Below are positions 5,277 to 12,266 of a stretch of 64,000 bases of DNA, piece by piece. Numbering within the stretch: position 1 is the first letter of the stretch; every line of letters starts with the position of its first letter. Location of the stretch: the IMG/VR virus record IMGVR_UViG_3300044701_002494, positions 1 through 64,000 of that record. One strand, 5' to 3'. The translations under genes were made by a program, and so were the position numbers. A model generated the notes under the pieces. It did not search any database and was not told where the DNA came from. It saw only the letters and a program-made list of their open reading frames with translations. This DNA comes from a virus.

Positions 5277-5382
5277 CGTTCATCTCCTCGTGTGCTAACT
5301 TTAATATGTAGTAAATGATGTATGCGGTGAAAGCAAGTCCGCAGGATAATATTATAACAACACCCCAAGGGAACTGATCCAT
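5230..5382 (-). CDS. small membrane protein, 50 aa, overlapping its neighbour
   Basis: The sequence MDQFPWGVVIILSCGLAFTA continues as a helix to YIIYYILKLA, then a charged tail HEEMNDEKFK. The ATG overlaps the stop of the metallopeptidase gene (TGATG at 5380-5384). Its last 47 nt are read in another frame as the start of the 70-aa gene, a heavy overlap for this phage. A holin or spanin partner role is possible but unproven. Confidence 0.6.
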   Translation of the reverse strand: MDQFPWGVVIILSCGLAFTAYIIYYILKLAHEEMNDEKFKSDTINHKSKH

Positions 5383-6128
5383 CAATACTTACCTTCTGTA
5401 CAATACTGGACTTTCTTATTTGGATAATAAGGATACAAACCATTTTGGGGTTTCATCCATCCACATCCAATCAACCATTCTTTTGTGAGTGGAGTTGGAG
5501 TAACCTGTTCCCACAAAGGTTTCTCTGCTGCCATTTCAAGATATCTAGCAGTCTGATTAGATTGTTCTTCTGCCCAGTTTGCATCTGCTTCCCAAGGAAC
5601 AGCACGACTTTGCATCATAGATTCATAAGTAAGTTTAGTTTGCTTCATAACCCAAGCAGGTATTTCACTATCTTGATGAACCTGTGCCATAAATGCAGTA
5701 TGTAGTCCACCACCCATAGCGTCTTGAACAACGTGCCAACCTTCGTGTCTTAAAGTTCCAAGAAACTCCCTTTCATCTTGAAGAAGAGTTTCGTTAATAA
5801 AGAAACGATTATAGTTTGGTTTATAAAGTCCTACAGTTCTTGGAGTAAAATATCTAGATGGAGCAACATAAACAGGAACTTCAAGTTTATTCAGAGCATT
5901 TACAATTCTAACTATTTCTTCTCTAAATGGATCAAAGTCTGGACTTTTTAAAAACTCAGATTCTGCTGATAATTTTTCGATACCCTCCGTACATTCCAAA
6001 AGTATCATACAACCCATTGCTTCAAGGCTATATGGTTTTACAGTTGGTTGTTTAGGTTCCAATGAACTTGCAATTGCTGGAACTGCTAATGTTAATGATA
6101 ATCCGATTGCTGTGAGGAATTTTTTCAT
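5382..6128 (-). CDS. exported HExxH metallopeptidase-like protein
   Basis: Residues 1-20 form a signal peptide (MKKFLTAIGLSLTLAVPAIA). Near residue 130 there is TLRHEGWHVVQDAMGGG, an HExxH zinc motif, and about 50 residues later EADANWAEE, which could supply the third zinc-binding glutamate. This arrangement is that of a zincin-type metalloprotease, but no named family is claimed. The export signal places it in the periplasm, where it could act on wall peptides or envelope proteins. It sits in the same transcription unit as the lysozyme and peptidase genes. Confidence 0.7.
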   Translation of the reverse strand: MKKFLTAIGLSLTLAVPAIASSLEPKQPTVKPYSLEAMGCMILLECTEGIEKLSAESEFLKSPDFDPFREEIVRIVNALNKLEVPVYVAPSRYFTPRTVGLYKPNYNRFFINETLLQDEREFLGTLRHEGWHVVQDAMGGGLHTAFMAQVHQDSEIPAWVMKQTKLTYESMMQSRAVPWEADANWAEEQSNQTARYLEMAAEKPLWEQVTPTPLTKEWLIGCGWMKPQNGLYPYYPNKKVQYCTEGKY

Positions 6129-6426: not shown

Positions 6427-6536
6427 TACTTTTTCTTACCTCCATTTTTTGCCTTTTTGGCAGTAGCATTACCTTGATTTTGCTTTTTATTACCAGCAGA
6501 ACCTTTTTTACCTTTATTTGGTGATTTAGACATCAT
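6426..6536 (-). CDS. tiny lysine/asparagine-rich protein, 36 aa
   Basis: The product is almost only Lys, Gly, Asn, Ser, Ala and Gln (SPNKGKKGSAGNKKQNQGNA and then KKAKNGGKKK). It starts in an ATGATG sequence that overlaps the upstream stop and ends in TAATG with the next gene. A DNA- or RNA-binding role is possible from the charge alone. Confidence 0.5.
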   Translation of the reverse strand: MMSKSPNKGKKGSAGNKKQNQGNATAKKAKNGGKKK

Positions 6537-6916
6537 AGATCTCCTCTTTGGAATGGTTTTTCTTCATCAACTTTTGCTTCGAGTGCTTCAACTCTTTCTT
6601 CAAGAGAAGAATCTGACGCTTCAGAATATCCAGTATCAACTAAAGGTAGTTCTTCAGTTCTTGTTTGAACTGGTTCTTCCCAAACTGGTTCTGGTGGTGT
6701 AGGAGGAGTTTCTACAAACTCTTCTCTTTTTGGTTCTGCTTTTTTCTCATCATCATCGTCACCTTTCTTCATGGTATTAATACCAAAAGTAGCAGCGGAT
6801 GCTGTAAAAACAGTCGCAATAAATGTTGGGTCCATCTTAGATAAAGCACCTGCATAACTTGCAGTCAGAAGAGCAGCAGCCCAACCAAGAATAGCAACAC
6901 GGATCACTGTGTTCAT
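6533..6916 (-). CDS. holin-like membrane protein with acidic C-terminal tail
   Basis: Two hydrophobic segments near the N-terminus (VAILGWAAALLTASYAGAL and FIATVFTASAATFGI) are separated by a short turn, then KKGDDDDEKK starts a long Pro/Glu-rich tail ending in a coiled-coil-like ERVEALEAKVDEE. This layout and the position directly after the lysozyme fit a holin. The start at 6916 is chosen because AGGGA lies just upstream; an ATG at 6949 would add 11 residues. Confidence 0.55.
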   Translation of the reverse strand: MNTVIRVAILGWAAALLTASYAGALSKMDPTFIATVFTASAATFGINTMKKGDDDDEKKAEPKREEFVETPPTPPEPVWEEPVQTRTEELPLVDTGYSEASDSSLEERVEALEAKVDEEKPFQRGDL

Positions 6917-6967
6917 ACAAGTTTCCCTTTTTTTAGTTTTGTTGTCCATTTTAGGTAGTAAGTGAAG

Positions 6968-7445: not shown

Positions 7446-7489
7446 GCGACAGCAGGAGCAGAAGCACCGCCGCCGCTAGTTACTTTCCC
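7446..7489 (-). promoter_or_regulatory. programmed -1 ribosomal frameshift signal
   Basis: On the minus strand the zero frame reads CTG GGA AAG TAA, so the heptamer G_GGA_AAG (7483-7489) is in X_XXY_YYZ register and directly abuts the stop. After a 6-nt spacer (TAACTA) comes a 10-bp stem: arms at 7467-7476 and 7446-7455, with an 11-nt loop. A -1 slip continues as GGG AAA GTA ACT into the lysozyme frame. The same heptamer drives the known lambda G/GT frameshift. Confidence 0.8.
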
Positions 7490-7704
7490 AGAGATTTACC
7501 ACAATGTGGACATACATCTCCAGCAGGAGCAGAAGCACCAGCAGATGATCCACCACCCTTACCTCTATAAATTTCCGCCCAGTCTGCGTTATCTTCAAGA
7601 TAATCATTAGGAAGATTATCTTCTAACCACTGAACTGCTTTAATATGACTTGGGTTTCTATCGTCATAAAATTTAAAAAAGTTATGTAAATCAACTCTTG
7701 CCAT
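7480..7704 (-). CDS. small cell-wall-hydrolase N-terminal module with zinc-ribbon-like end
   Basis: The product begins MARVDLHNFFKFYDDRNPSH and continues with AVQWLEDNLP, a module repeated at the start of the peptidase encoded at 7803-8474. A Gly/Ser/Ala linker leads to CPHCGKSLGK, a half zinc ribbon, and the stop. The start at 7704 is preceded by GGAGGAAACG, a strong ribosome binding site. A -1 slip at the last two codons would bypass the stop and join this module to the GH24 lysozyme. The module may direct the enzyme to the wall or virion; that is inferred from its reuse. Confidence 0.8.
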   Translation of the reverse strand: MARVDLHNFFKFYDDRNPSHIKAVQWLEDNLPNDYLEDNADWAEIYRGKGGGSSAGASAPAGDVCPHCGKSLGK

Positions 7705-7831
7705 CGTTTCCTCCGAAATACTTTTGATAGAGTTCGTTTGCTTCCTTATGCTTTCCGTTATCAGCAAGATCCTTAATTACCTTAAGCATCTTAGCTTTAA
7801 AATTAGTCGAAGATCCTTCCCCACCCATCAT
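7691..7831 (-). CDS. small helical protein, 46 aa, function unknown
   Basis: The ORF has a GGAGG ribosome binding site and starts ATGATG inside the 3' end of the peptidase gene. It ends just inside the next gene. The product is charged and helical (FKAKMLKVIKDLADNGKHKE, then ANELYQKYFGGNDGKS). Codons for GGNDG near its end supply the GGAGG and ATG of the following gene, and the same arrangement occurs at the end of the peptidase gene. Confidence 0.55.
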   Translation of the reverse strand: MMGGEGSSTNFKAKMLKVIKDLADNGKHKEANELYQKYFGGNDGKS

Positions 7832-8474
7832 TGCCTCCTGGACACCAACGGTGCTTAAGAACTGCTTTGGTGTAAATGGTCTTCTTACCGTTAGTTACAG
7901 GACCTGAATAATTATCATTTAAAGAACCATAAGGATCATTTACATAATATCCCTTCCCATCTGGTGTCTTACCGATTACAACACACATATGCCCACCAGT
8001 AGGTGCAGATAAAGAACCCCTGTGCAGAATACCAATAACAACAGGTTTGCCTCTATCAAGGCTTTTATCAATATCAGCAAAAGAAAGATTGTAGCTAAAG
8101 TGTGACTTAACTCCATAACCCGCCAAAACTTTTGTCTGTACGGAGTGATCAGTCGTATCACCAATTGCGAATACTTTTTTAACGTATTCATCATCACCTT
8201 TAATGCTTCCTGGCTTGAGGAATGCAAGGCACATAGCGCACGATGAAGAGTTGCAAGTTCTATGTGCATCTCTATAATTGTCTACCTGATTAAAATAAGG
8301 AACATCTAAAACTGCAGGTGTTGGTGGAGCAGTTCTAAAAATACTTACCCAATCAGATTCAGAATCATCTAAAAATTTTTCTGGTAGGTTATCTTCTAAC
8401 CACTGAACTGCTGCAACATGGTTGGGGTTTTTATCATCATAATACTTAAAAAAGTTATGAAGATCTAGGGTCAT
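7803..8474 (-). CDS. C39-like cysteine peptidase with shared N-terminal module
   Basis: Residues 1-40 (LDLHNFFKYYDDKNP, AVQWLEDNLPEKFL) repeat the module of the lysozyme fusion. The rest resembles C39-like peptidases: a Cys-rich start (TCNSSSCAMCLAFL), then GKPVVIGILHRG, GGHMCVVIGKT with the likely catalytic His, and YYVNDPYGS with the Asp. These enzymes are papain-like; in phages they are proposed to cut peptidoglycan cross-bridges or other peptides. No signal peptide is seen. It overlaps the upstream 65-aa gene by 20 nt. Confidence 0.75.
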   Translation of the reverse strand: MTLDLHNFFKYYDDKNPNHVAAVQWLEDNLPEKFLDDSESDWVSIFRTAPPTPAVLDVPYFNQVDNYRDAHRTCNSSSCAMCLAFLKPGSIKGDDEYVKKVFAIGDTTDHSVQTKVLAGYGVKSHFSYNLSFADIDKSLDRGKPVVIGILHRGSLSAPTGGHMCVVIGKTPDGKGYYVNDPYGSLNDNYSGPVTNGKKTIYTKAVLKHRWCPGGNDGWGRIFD

Positions 8475-8736: not shown

Positions 8737-9162
8737 ATGGATTGGCAATATAATGGAGAAGTCTTTACCGATGTTCCCAAAGGAATGGAAGGGTTTGTTT
8801 ACATAATTACAAATCTTACGAATAACAAAAAATATATTGGTAAAAAACATTTTTGGACTAGACAAAAGAATAAAAAAACAGGAAGAAGAAAGACAGAAGA
8901 ATCTGATTGGAAAAATTACTTTGGTTCTTGTGATGAACTCAATGAAGATGTAAAAAAAATAGGTAAAGAACATTTCCTTAGAGAAATTCTTTACCTATGT
9001 CCTCATAAGAAATCTATGAGTTATTATGAAACTTATGAACAATTTAATCGTAATGTATTATTAAGTGAAGAATATTATAATACCAATATTGGTGGAACCT
9101 TTTATATGAGTGAATCTGAAAGAATTTATGGTGTGGTTCTTAAGTCTTCTAAGATTAGCTAA
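8737..9162 (+). CDS. GIY-YIG-type endonuclease
   Basis: The N-terminal part contains GFVYIITNLTNNKKYIGKKH, the beta-strand pair of the GIY-YIG fold (here VYI and YIG), followed by a charged DNA-contact region and SDWKNYFGS. The later SYYETYEQF segment is shared by a phage group of this family. It may act as a free-standing homing or host-DNA endonuclease. It is the only plus-strand gene in this part of the window, which suggests recent insertion. It shares a terminator with the convergent gene. Confidence 0.7.
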   Translation: MDWQYNGEVFTDVPKGMEGFVYIITNLTNNKKYIGKKHFWTRQKNKKTGRRKTEESDWKNYFGSCDELNEDVKKIGKEHFLREILYLCPHKKSMSYYETYEQFNRNVLLSEEYYNTNIGGTFYMSESERIYGVVLKSSKIS

Positions 9163-9248: not shown

Positions 9249-11201
9249 TCAGACACCTTGTATCATAGATCCTGGGGATTGCTTCAGATTAGGAAGATCA
9301 ACCCCAGCAGCTTTTTTCTTTTGAAGTTCAATTGCCTTTTGACCCAATTGAGCAGCTGCAGATGGTGTTAATGCACCTGCTCCTGTAGATCTTTTAATTT
9401 GAAAACTTGGATCACCTTCAACAATACTTTGAATACACGTGGCATCCATTTCCATCATCACATAAAGTGCTTCCTCTAAAGTATCTACGTGTCCCTGTGA
9501 AAAAAGATATTCAAGGACAATATCGTAAGATTCCATCTTAACTGGTTTTATGCCTTCTTTTTCAATACGCTCTCTTGTTGCCTTTAACTCTTTTGCCTGA
9601 GAAACTAGACTTTCTCTTTTTTTAAGTGTTTCCGGTTTTAGAGAAGGAGTTGGAGAAGTTGCAGCAATTTTATTAGACTTAGCAACATCAACTGCTGCTT
9701 TTATACCTGCCTCACCCCCACCAGCTTTCTTAGATGCTGCCATTTCAGCAGAAGTGGGAGTTCTTCTTTCATAAGAAGTTCCAGTAGCAGTCACATTTTT
9801 GGACTGAATAGTTGATGGTTGGGGTTTTGGTGTAGAAACAACTGGTTTTGGAGAAATTCTAGGTGTAGTTGCGGCAGGTTGTGCAAATGTTCTTGTATTT
9901 TTACGAGCACCTGCAAATTCATCACCAGGTGGTTGATTTACCCCATATTTTCTATCAATTGCAGCATCAGCAGCAGCATCTCTTCTTGCCTTATCCTTCA
10001 TTGCACGATTTGCAAGATTGTCAATTTGTAATTGATCACGACCACGAACAGTTACATATCTATCAATGTTCTGCCTTCTGAAGGCATCAGAACCTGGCGC
10101 ATATCTTTGCCAGGTTTTTGGTTTTCCTGGTTCCATAGTTCCAACTATACCACCTCTTGGTGCAATTACACCAGTTGCACGAGATTGATCCTTTGCTGAT
10201 GGATTATATGTTCTTCCAGTATTAGGATTATATGATGCACCAGAACCAGTGGCAGTTGATTTTACCTTTTCTACTTCTTTTTCTCTTTTTGTCATAAAGA
10301 CGCCAGCAGGATCCCACCAAGCACGCTCTTGAATAATGTTGTTAATATTTTCACTATTCATTTCCATCATCACATAAAGTGCTTCCTCTAAAGTATCTAC
10401 GTGTCCCTGTGAAAAAAGATATTCAAGGACAATATCATAGGCATCATACTGTTCTTTAAATCCAAGAATGTTTTTAGTTCTTTGAGACATTAGTTTAGTA
10501 GCAGACGAAGAATAAGGACCGCCAGAAAGTTTTGACTGTGCTTGAGGAGCAGTAGGAGTTGGAGGACCAGAATATCCTGATTTTTCATTACCTGGTGCTT
10601 GAGGTGCAGGTCTTAAAGCACGAAGTTGGGCAGATTGTTTTGCCATTTCACTCTGACCGGTTCCAAGTTGCTGACCAGTTGGACTTACTTTTTTAGCAAG
10701 AGTATCCTTATACTTTGCTTTCCAAATATCCATACCCATATCCCTTACCTTTGCCATCTCAGTGGGATCTCCACTCTTTCTAGCAGCAGATGCAGCTGCC
10801 ATATACTTAGAAACCTGATCGGATGCTTTTATTGTTGCTGTTGGTAAAGCAGAAGGTCTCTGTACTTGTGGTTTTTGTACTTGTGGTTTTTGTACTTGTG
10901 GTTTTTGTACTTCGGGAGGTTGTACTTGTGGTTTTTGTGTTCCGGAAGTACCAACTCCCTTTAATCTTTGTTTTTCTGCGTCAATTTGTGCTTGTCTATC
11001 TTTATTTCTTTTTTCCGCAGCAGCAAATTTAGCAGGGTCTAAGTATTTTAATGCTTTTTCTGGAACTTCTGCCTTTGGAACCCAAGTATCTGGAATTGGT
11101 TTTCCAGTTTTTGGGTCAATCATAACAGCCCCTATTTCACCTTTTCTACGAGCAATTACTGGTTTCGGTTTACTTTGTTCTATTATATTATCAGAAGCCA
11201 T
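9249..11201 (-). CDS. large low-complexity late protein with duplicated helical motif, probably virion-associated
   Basis: The 650-aa product is rich in Pro, Gln, Ala and Lys. A KPQVQ repeat lies near residue 95. The helical motif YDIVLEYLFSQGHVDTLEEA occurs twice, at about residues 254 and 558, encoded by two identical 78-bp stretches. Similar motifs occur in the proteins at 11279, 39944 and 40673. The N-terminus DNIIEQ contains an I-x-E that fits the T4 gp21 protease consensus. A late promoter lies 21 nt upstream. A role as an internal or scaffold-associated head protein is inferred. Confidence 0.65.
   Translation of the reverse strand: MASDNIIEQSKPKPVIARRKGEIGAVMIDPKTGKPIPDTWVPKAEVPEKALKYLDPAKFAAAEKRNKDRQAQIDAEKQRLKGVGTSGTQKPQVQPPEVQKPQVQKPQVQKPQVQRPSALPTATIKASDQVSKYMAAASAARKSGDPTEMAKVRDMGMDIWKAKYKDTLAKKVSPTGQQLGTGQSEMAKQSAQLRALRPAPQAPGNEKSGYSGPPTPTAPQAQSKLSGGPYSSSATKLMSQRTKNILGFKEQYDAYDIVLEYLFSQGHVDTLEEALYVMMEMNSENINNIIQERAWWDPAGVFMTKREKEVEKVKSTATGSGASYNPNTGRTYNPSAKDQSRATGVIAPRGGIVGTMEPGKPKTWQRYAPGSDAFRRQNIDRYVTVRGRDQLQIDNLANRAMKDKARRDAAADAAIDRKYGVNQPPGDEFAGARKNTRTFAQPAATTPRISPKPVVSTPKPQPSTIQSKNVTATGTSYERRTPTSAEMAASKKAGGGEAGIKAAVDVAKSNKIAATSPTPSLKPETLKKRESLVSQAKELKATRERIEKEGIKPVKMESYDIVLEYLFSQGHVDTLEEALYVMMEMDATCIQSIVEGDPSFQIKRSTGAGALTPSAAAQLGQKAIELQKKKAAGVDLPNLKQSPGSMIQGV
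9447..9524. repeat. 78-bp direct repeat, copy 1
   Basis: It is identical to 10359-10436 over all 78 bases. Both copies encode the same helical motif in the same frame of one gene. Perfect identity at third codon positions indicates recent duplication or gene conversion. Confidence 0.9.
10359..10436. repeat. 78-bp direct repeat, copy 2
   Basis: It is identical to 9447-9524, about 900 bp away in the same gene. Confidence 0.9.
10861..10939. repeat. 15-bp tandem repeat coding for KPQVQ
   Basis: The unit TGTACTTGTGGTTTT is repeated three times without interruption and once more after a variant unit. It is in frame with the gene and gives a Pro/Gln linker. This is a typical slippage-prone coding repeat. 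Confidence 0.85.
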
Positions 11202-11278: not shown

Positions 11279-12238
11279 TTAAACTCCTTTTACACCAGAA
11301 GCATTAGGAAATCCATTTGGGTAAGGCTTTAGTTTATCTAAAGTCTTTCTAGTTTTATTAAGGTCATCTGCCATTCCGTGAGAACCTTTTCTTTGATCAT
11401 CTACAACAGAAGCGGCTCTTTGTGCAATAGCACTCTGCTCAATAATACTCTCTCTCCACTCTTCACTCATATTTACCATAATCTTGAGTGCTGCTTCTTC
11501 TGTATCGGCATAACCTTCATCAAGAAGATGACCTTTGACTAAATCAAAGAGGTCTACTGATTGCAACTGAGCCCAAGCATTCTTCTTTTCATCTTCTGGT
11601 TTAGGTTGGGGGGGTTTTTTAGTTGTTGGTGTTGTCAATGCTTGACCAGCTTTTTGAAGTCTACCAGCAGTTTCCCCAGCAGCTGCACCAGGATCTTGTT
11701 TCGCACTCCACCCAAGAAGTTCTGAACCTTTTTGTAAAGCGAATTGTGTTGGACTTTGTGGCAATGCTCTCGAAAGTTCCATACCAGTCAGAACAAGACC
11801 AGCTTTTTTTAATGGTTGTCCTGGTTTGGTTATAACATCTTTTAAAGCACCGGGTATTTTGGGAATATTTTTCACCACTTTACCAGCAACTTCCGCACCA
11901 CCACCAATTGCTCTTTTAGTTAATTGGGATGCAATATTAGAACCTGCAGGAAGATTAGCACCTGTTCTGAAACGTTGAGCTACATATGATAAAGCTGGTT
12001 GTGCAACTTGCTTTGCTCTCTGCATTCTAGAAAGTAGAGAAGTAACCTGAACCGGATTCTCAGTCAAACAAAATTCATAAAAATCAACTTGATCATCTTC
12101 ATTGATATCATACCCCTCTTCAATAAAAACATCCATCAAAATCTGTGCAAGTTTTCTTGCATTTTCTTCAATATTTTTTTCCAAATAAATTGAATTATAT
12201 GCCTCTAATAATTCCGCTGTTACTTTATTGGATATCAT
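11279..12238 (-). CDS. late protein with shared helical motif, probably virion-associated
   Basis: The product starts MISNKVTAELLEAYNSIYLE, where L-L-E fits the gp21 cleavage consensus. Near residue 232 it has LFDLVKGHLLDEGYADTEEA then MVNMSEEWRESIIEQ, the motif also present at 39944-40645 and, in a variant form, at 9249-11201. The middle is Ala/Gly/Lys-rich with possible amphipathic helices. The ATG at 12238 replaces a TTG start 12 nt upstream. A late promoter lies 29 nt upstream. Function unknown; packaging in the head is suggested. Confidence 0.6.
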   Translation of the reverse strand: MISNKVTAELLEAYNSIYLEKNIEENARKLAQILMDVFIEEGYDINEDDQVDFYEFCLTENPVQVTSLLSRMQRAKQVAQPALSYVAQRFRTGANLPAGSNIASQLTKRAIGGGAEVAGKVVKNIPKIPGALKDVITKPGQPLKKAGLVLTGMELSRALPQSPTQFALQKGSELLGWSAKQDPGAAAGETAGRLQKAGQALTTPTTKKPPQPKPEDEKKNAWAQLQSVDLFDLVKGHLLDEGYADTEEAALKIMVNMSEEWRESIIEQSAIAQRAASVVDDQRKGSHGMADDLNKTRKTLDKLKPYPNGFPNASGVKGV

Positions 12239-12266
12239 TTTAAAAAACAAAAATCTTATTTAAAAA

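Follow-up and report, generated by a model that had tools for sequence, protein, structure and literature searches.

Programmed −1 frameshifting yields the tail-assembly chaperone of phage lambda (G/GT), whose heptamer, GGGAAAG, is also that of the locus described here. It likewise operates in dnaX and in insertion sequences, where the stem is spaced 5 to 8 nt from the heptamer (excerpts of PMC4066793). In a second kind of system, represented by excerpts of reports on LysIME-EF1 (PMC7098653), CTP1L (PMC4777826), and a further study (PMC9430671), a single endolysin gene gives rise to two polypeptides, namely, the complete enzyme and a truncated chain that lacks the catalytic part. The truncated chain is initiated internally and ends at the same stop codon, the phages infect Gram-positive hosts, and the chains assemble. 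A third is the MS2 lysis gene, which, by the titles of two papers, "depends on a frameshift" (1982) and is "activated by translation termination" (1987). In cyanophages, PHROG 3617 and PHROG 10051 (the latter named endolysin) combine a small module, a C39 peptidase, and a lysozyme in one profile, in the order module, C39, and lysozyme or lysozyme, module, and C39. The nearest isolates, DSL-LC02 and DSL-LC03 (Synechococcus isolates from Dishui Lake), have the same pair of genes as the locus below, one coding for module-C39 and the other for module-lysozyme, with the lysozyme fused in frame by a short linker devoid of a CPHCGK tail, heptamer, or stop.

Lakes and the sea commonly harbor T4-like cyanophages, and the virus studied here is apparently one of these. 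We analyzed a window of 64,000 nt (positions 1 to 64,000 of IMG/VR virus record IMGVR_UViG_3300044701_002494), in which two adjacent minus-strand genes, 98 nt apart, carry the following features.

7803 to 8474, minus strand: gene 1, an ORF of 223 aa consisting of the module (residues 1 to 49) and an in-frame C39-like (papain-fold) peptidase
8328 to 8474, minus strand: module copy 1, 49 aa (E = 4.7e-28)
7691 to 7831, minus strand: an ORF of 46 aa that overlaps the 3' end of gene 1 and the 5' end of gene 2 (weak match to PHROG 4698, E = 0.008)
7480 to 7704, minus strand: the 0-frame product of gene 2, an ORF of 74 aa kept in relatives, consisting of module copy 2, a Gly/Ser/Ala linker, CPHCGKSLGK, and a stop
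7558 to 7704, minus strand: module copy 2, 49 aa (E = 3.1e-28)
7483 to 7512, minus strand: the CPHCGKSLGK tail with a CxxC, zinc-knuckle-like in sequence and kept in relatives as CPHCGK[SP]LGK
7483 to 7489, minus strand: the slippery heptamer G GGA AAG, immediately 5' of TAA (7480 to 7482)
7446 to 7476, minus strand: a stem-loop predicted by RNA folding, 6 nt past the heptamer, with 10 bp and an inner 2-bp helix
6968 to 7483, minus strand: the −1 frame extension from the heptamer, an ORF with a linker, a GH24 lysozyme, and a stop

An earlier note on this DNA had claimed that one module opens both the peptidase and the lysozyme genes, joined directly in one and by a frameshift in the other. Both points hold: the two modules (~49 aa) are identical at 29 of 46 positions (63%; pairwise E = 4e-23) and are the only module matches at E ≤ 0.001 in the entire 96-kb virus record, and the C39 domain follows in frame, whereas the lysozyme lies in the −1 frame at a conserved G GGA AAG. 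Gene 1, with the N-terminal start MTLDLHNFFKYYDDKNPNHVAAVQWLEDNLP, reads into Peptidase_C39_2 (PF13529; E = 1.3e-14; 55.4 bits versus a gathering score of 24) and matches PHROG 3617/10051. Its residues C74, H162, and D180, which we take to be catalytic, are invariant across 38 alignment rows, and this Cys/His/Asp set together with the profile score qualifies the domain as a predicted C39-like peptidase. The structures closest to its predicted model are C39/papain-like, with 3erv at the top and the pseudomurein endoisopeptidase PeiR further down the list. Gene 2 starts with MARVDLHNFFKFYDDRNPSHIKAVQWLEDNLP and stops 25 residues past the module, at the end of CPHCGKSLGK, the CxxC of which is a candidate metal-binding part. 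The join reads CTG GGA AAG TAA, with the heptamer in a short overlap of the 0 and −1 frames, and thereby has the form of a putative −1 frameshift site, an X XXY YYZ heptamer at the end of the 0-frame ORF. Beyond it, the −1 frame matches PF00959 (6992 to 7402; E = 2e-22; 80.3 bits versus a gathering score of 22.3), by which it is a predicted GH24 phage lysozyme.

With lambda G/GT, dnaX, and insertion sequences, as far as the excerpts of the literature go, the locus shares the X XXY YYZ heptamer, the downstream stem-loop, and a −1 extension; unlike theirs, this extension is a lysis enzyme domain rather than a tail chaperone, polymerase subunit, or transposase. As in the excerpted accounts of two-polypeptide endolysins, a full-length enzyme and a shorter chain lacking the catalytic part would come from one gene. 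Here, however, the short chain is the N-terminal part, would arise without frameshifting, and belongs to a phage of a cyanobacterial host; moreover, the two ORFs differ in frame and stop, rather than being in frame with a common stop. The resemblance to MS2, going by those titles, is that expression of a phage lysis gene depends on the frame in which the upstream gene is read; MS2 is nevertheless an RNA phage, its lysis protein is no endolysin, and by the 1987 title it is expressed after termination, with no fusion. Relative to PHROG 3617/10051, the window has the set divided between two genes, each with its own module copy, and includes a frameshift, and relative to DSL-LC02 and DSL-LC03, it has an extra linker carrying the CPHCGK tail, the heptamer, and the stop. 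Among the matches listed from the open-licence literature (titles and starts of abstracts), we recognized no frameshift-made endolysin. The words endolysin, lysozyme, and cyanophage are absent from 300,000 of the 475,107 characters that make up a review of frameshifting from 2016 (PMC5009743), a portion in which "lysis" occurs in reference titles, MS2 among them; lysozyme and endolysin are absent from a frame-transition survey (PMC3711429), and two Listeria papers have "translational frameshift" in reference titles only. The separate elements thus appear to be of known kinds (−1 signals and two-product endolysin genes), and an endolysin produced via a frameshift is what we did not find described in these sources.

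To characterize the join in relatives, we used the best 80 of 550 relatives from a protein search of IMG/VR, and these comprised 32 early-stopped module ORFs and 48 in-frame module-lysozyme fusions. Every one of the 32 short ORFs ends in CPHCGK[SP]LGK, with GGGAAAG against TAA (19) or TAG (13) and the lysozyme behind it in the −1 frame. A search with the module alone (80 loci, on contigs partly shared with the first search) recovered nine module-only ORFs, all ending in GGGAAAG-stop. Several of the 32 contigs are near-copies; removal of identical 300-nt junctions gave 27 module>lysozyme junctions, including that of the window. Four of these (L100, L108, L127, and L128) were added by a DNA scan for the knuckle and heptamer and are hence not counted as support for the heptamer; the remaining 23, obtained independently of such a search, all have it. 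All 27, of which 10 are mutually divergent by shared 8-mers, have G GGA AAG against TAA or TAG and the lysozyme in the −1 frame. Their last codons are invariably CTG or TTG followed by GGA and AAG, while the Cys, Pro, His, and Gly codons upstream vary synonymously; GGA AAG encodes Gly-Lys at 27 of 27 junctions versus 5% of the 173 Gly-Lys pairs found elsewhere in these genes. Within window ORFs of at least 150 aa, an in-frame GGGAAAG occurs at 1 of 17,105 codon positions, and TAG is the stop of 4 of the 48 ORFs. In a lysozyme tree (158 rows, 149 columns), the GGGAAAG and in-frame forms are intermixed, with at least four changes forced by well-supported branches, indicating several losses, gains, or exchanges of the cassette. 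Many close relatives, including DSL-LC02 and DSL-LC03, have the plain in-frame fusion; hence, the frameshift is not indispensable. In some in-frame relatives (L040, L041, L042, L044, L050, L065, L067, and L077), the linker keeps C..CGKG or C..CGRG without a stop, and this retention of the knuckle suggests that the CxxC may matter apart from frameshifting.

A parallel break lies one gene earlier in other phages. The best 80 of 388 relatives from a search with divergent modules, together with isolates, supplied 53 deduplicated pairs in which a module-C39 gene is followed by a lysozyme without this module. The lysozyme domain begins no more than 150 nt from the C39 stop in 40 pairs, invariably in the −1 frame, and 31 of these junctions are divergent by shared 8-mers. 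An in-frame A AAA AAG is present in 38 of the 40, against the stop in 31 and one codon earlier in 7; of the exceptions, S-CAM7 has a run of eight T and L256 has neither. At the 31 stop-abutting junctions, A is the invariable third base of the codon 5' of AAA AAG, whether this codes for Val, Ala, Thr, or Ser, and Lys-Lys is always encoded by AAA AAG, versus 14% of 22 other Lys-Lys pairs. TAG terminates 32 of 36 heptamer-ended C39 ORFs versus 18 of 240 other C39 ORFs (counts with duplicates included). An in-frame AAAAAAG occurs at 3 of the 17,105 codon positions of the window ORFs of at least 150 aa. With both groups pooled, the downstream lysozyme is in the −1 frame at 67 of 67 junctions, in an ORF that reaches back beyond the 0-frame stop.

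These relatives bear directly on whether the break in frame arose from an indel in sequencing or assembly or marks a decayed gene, a reading to which we give next to no credence even though the window comes from a metagenome contig and the closest isolates are in-frame fusions. It predicts that relatives lack the break, and this prediction failed: the heptamer and stop are alike in all 32 stop-ended loci among the best 80 of 550 relatives, a long lysozyme frame is retained in 26 of the 27 deduplicated junctions (that of L028 is short, at 101 codons), and the S-PM2 isolate has the same module-C39/lysozyme junction in two records, in both of which the lysozyme is annotated as a 72-aa "putative lysin" starting well inside the frame seen here. 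Judged from these sequences, the break represents a −1 frameshift signal that has been conserved, and not an error.

The hairpin in the window has a predicted energy of −26.3 kcal/mol for 70 nt, with a z score of −1.85 taken alone. Across relatives, we evaluated three intervals running from just past the first bases of the stop to +55, +75, and +100. The mean z scores were −2.14, −3.10, and −2.64 for the GGGAAAG group (below −2 in 12, 26, and 20 of 27) and −2.69, −2.17, and −1.55 for the C39 group (below −2 in 28, 20, and 13 of 40), versus −0.84 to −1.25 for control linkers of in-frame module-lysozyme fusions (n = 80). When the intervals were anchored on the lysozyme, the GGGAAAG group gave −1.88 to −2.73 and the C39 group −0.59, −0.39, and −2.28, i.e., no excess structure in two of three, which indicates that in the C39 group only the stretch nearest the lysozyme is structured. 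The first predicted helix of at least 6 bp lies 5 to 7 nt downstream in 23 of the 27 GGGAAAG junctions (6 nt in 20), whereas its spacing varies in the C39 group (5 to 8 nt in 15 of 40, 9 nt in 4, 2 nt in 12, and elsewhere in 9). A stimulatory structure about 5 to 8 nt downstream, as expected of a frameshift site, is accordingly present by prediction.

The predicted stems also bear compensatory changes. The stems of the 31 A AAA AAG-stop junctions occupy three registers and contain compensatory pairs; for example, one pair of third positions is A-U in 12, G-C in 5, and G-U in 1. In the GGGAAAG group, pairing at columns +7 to +13 is seen in all 27 junctions, and at several of these columns G-C alternates with C-G (the partners being taken from predicted folds). 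Some of the compensatory pairs fall at synonymous positions, and pairing is better between native arms than between arms exchanged among unrelated loci in 767 of 916 and 427 of 540 comparisons. The stems are weak (−2.5 to −10.2 kcal/mol) at the loci where the lysozyme starts at an ATGA overlap (S-SRM01, L247, L256, L261, and L273), as would be expected if slippage were no longer needed there; some heptamer-stop loci (L006, L268, and L276) are equally weak, at −8.2 to −9.8 kcal/mol under the 45-nt span limit of this fold, which cuts the S-PM2 stem that is visible in the +55, +75, and +100 intervals. A search for a described RNA family at the junction found none, with one match at chance level.

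Homopolymer runs are known to serve polymerase slippage that produces mixed mRNAs. The six A of A AAA AAG and the eight T of S-CAM7 could be read in this way, as runs on which RNA polymerase rather than the ribosome slips, but GGGAAAG is free of long runs, and the stem predicted downstream, in many cases at 5 to 9 nt, fits a ribosomal stimulator (5 to 8 nt in excerpts of PMC4066793); we consider polymerase slippage very improbable.

Production of the lysozyme from its own start codon, by internal initiation or by reinitiation after the upstream stop and with an incidental heptamer, is an alternative that draws on the start codons present. An ATG lies between the stop and the lysozyme in 25 of the 27 GGGAAAG junctions (L022 has one only upstream of the stop, at 31 nt, and L038 has none), including the window, where ATG ATG lies 59 to 62 nt past the gene 2 stop, and internal initiation could thus contribute in this group; a Shine-Dalgarno-like motif was flagged before that ATG in 2 of the 25. 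The ATGA-overlap loci, with their start-stop overlap and weak predicted stems, likewise suggest that such a route seems to exist in some relatives. Against it, the lysozyme frame offers no ATG, GTG, or TTG upstream of the catalytic-Glu motif in 18 of the 40 C39 junctions, S-PM2 included, so that among those start codons frameshifting is the sole route seen there; only GTG or TTG is available in 16 more, leaving 6 with ATG, and nearly all of these junctions keep the heptamer and −1 frame. Own-start translation also leaves the codon choice and the compensatory stem changes unexplained. We regard it as quite unlikely to be the general explanation, and frameshifting as only the likelier route in the GGGAAAG group to which the window belongs.

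The earlier note had further named the linkage of the module to wall enzymes and its separateness from each catalytic fold as points on which its reading depends, and the searches bear out the first point in the loci examined. In the 80 loci of the divergent-module search (best 80 of 388 relatives), the module is always directly 5' of the C39 domain, in the architectures module-C39 (70), module-C39-lysozyme (9), and lysozyme-module-C39 (1), and in 81 loci from module-alignment searches, it occurs only with C39, lysozyme, or the CPHCGK tail. Isolates extend the range of partners to glucosaminidase-module-C39 (PSS2), module-C39-GH19-like (S-N03 and, likewise, contig L257), C39-module-GH19-like (S-B68), and lysozyme-module-C39 (S-CREM1), and the fosmid MedDCM S38-C3 has module-GH19-like without C39; the GH19-like label is based on matches to PHROG chitinases and endolysins, with Pfam giving either no match or one below its cut-off. 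Shorter look-alikes precede C39 in S-CBP2, S-CBS2, and S-CRES1, and a search with one of them gave 15 of 17 records annotated as wall enzymes. All 67 phage-record matches at E ≤ 0.5 are to Synechococcus phages; at an E limit of 10, 52 of 119 records were from non-Synechococcus phages, none of which is left at 0.5. The module had no family match in Pfam (best E for a window module, 0.22, below cut-off) and no solved relative among PDB sequences (best E, 0.21). On these sequences, it is, in the loci examined, a cyanophage wall-enzyme module of several cyanophage kinds.

A place within each catalytic fold was rejected, since the predicted models set three short helices before the enzyme, at residues 17 to 29, 32 to 35, and 41 to 45 in module-C39 and at residues 18 to 30, 33 to 38, and 40 to 46 in module-lysozyme, where residues 42 to 68 have pLDDT < 50. 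Means over 10-residue blocks of residues 1 to 50 are 55 to 82 and 42 to 67, respectively, so the module is predicted with moderate confidence to be a separate helical segment, in agreement with the second point. A host-cell domain was also considered and rejected: a scan of 84,980 species with one 8-residue pattern, which divergent forms of the module would escape, gave 189 pattern matches and one relative, on a contig that we take for phage DNA. We observed both tagged enzymes and, by eye, a ribonucleotide-reductase-like ORF on VGTM01000161.1 (L129), which is binned as a Euryarchaeota MAG and looks like cyanophage DNA in a mislabeled bin.

The export or virion address that the note had offered for the shared tag fared less well. 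The module is N-terminal in the window and most loci seen, as an export signal or virion-attachment tag might be, but it is internal in PSS2, S-CREM1, and S-B68, for which reason we do not take it for an export signal, and it is acidic (pI 4.4 to 4.8) and hydrophilic (GRAVY −0.65 and −0.97); we hold such a function in place of wall or partner binding to be unlikely. The idea of a two-enzyme set stands insofar as the module is common to a peptidase and a glycosidase, but the module is not specific to the gene pair, and some relatives have both enzymes in a single chain. The lysozyme is linked to the module in four ways: it is joined either to module-C39 or to a module copy of its own, in each case by direct fusion or by a frameshift. 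That it mostly ends up in a module-bearing chain, whatever the gene arrangement, is the best indication that the module is important to the lysozyme. We infer a binding or assembly part of lysis enzymes, with the wall and partner subunits being about equally plausible targets.

Taking the explanation as a whole, we consider it highly probable that the locus is a cyanophage lysis-enzyme set in which each wall hydrolase chain bears the same small helical module and the lysozyme is made by a programmed −1 frameshift. Ribosomes reaching G GGA AAG in gene 2 would be paused by the stem-loop 6 nt ahead, with the stop codon next; most would terminate, releasing the 74-aa module with its CxxC tail, and a fraction would re-pair on GGG AAA, slip one base back, and continue into the lysozyme, which in the window arrangement would acquire a module copy only upon this slip. 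The AAAAAAG relatives would slip one gene earlier, at the end of module-C39, giving module-C39 or module-C39-lysozyme. The slip rate would set the ratio of lysozyme-bearing to lysozyme-free chains, the surplus being module-C39 in the AAAAAAG group and the 74-aa module in the GGGAAAG group. That slippage occurs, how often, and that the enzymes act in lysis is what we infer from the conserved signal, frame, stem, and module partners. More tentatively, and with rather less than an even chance of being right, the frameshift may dose the lysozyme, such that module-only or module-peptidase chains and rarer lysozyme chains assemble via the module and CxxC tail into a mixed complex, with the slip rate setting the stoichiometry and perhaps the timing of lysis. 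If true, no programmed frameshift producing a phage endolysin would have been known before, and this one would have arisen with at least two, perhaps three, heptamers (GGGAAAG, AAAAAAG, and the T run of S-CAM7). Cyanophage lysis genes are poorly annotated, as the S-PM2 "putative lysin" illustrates; if the explanation is right, a lysis enzyme is under the control of a recurrent recoding signal, the lysozymes of this family are present in databases in truncated form, and wall enzymes in several cyanophage kinds are marked by a small uncharacterized module.

The other 13 of the 53 pairs, with 10 lysozymes starting at an ATGA overlap, have a different leader of ~47 aa (MTIKFIDAVK..HQ..AW.FLQA) on the lysozyme behind module-C39 (L242, L259, L222, and 10 other loci). 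These 13 lysozymes form one clade in the lysozyme tree. The leader looks like a divergent module and is possibly a far relative of it, the profile comparison being weak (probability, 35%).

We also noted several features of the neighboring genes. The 46-aa ORF between the two genes has an AGGAGG upstream, and similar DNA is found 3' of C39 in several relatives. Directly 3' of the lysozyme, a 138-aa protein (6533 to 6949, minus strand; PHROG 21865/721, a family without an assigned function) displays, by eye, two hydrophobic stretches near the N terminus and a charged tail and could be a holin. A 248-aa protein (5382 to 6128, minus strand; PHROG 591, likewise without an assigned function) has, by eye, a signal-peptide-like start and an HEGWH motif resembling a metalloprotease site. 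A GIY-YIG-like homing endonuclease (8737 to 9162, plus strand) adjoins the lysis genes on the opposite strand; its best PHROGs family is named "NAD synthetase," probably a wrong label, and the S-CAM7 record notes the same. Finally, a 650-aa protein (9249 to 11201, minus strand) contains an identical 27-residue stretch, YDIVLEYLFSQGHVDTLEEALYVMMEM, twice, and the next gene (11279 to 12250, minus strand) carries an apparent diverged copy of it, DLVKGHLLDEGYADTEEAALKIMVNM.
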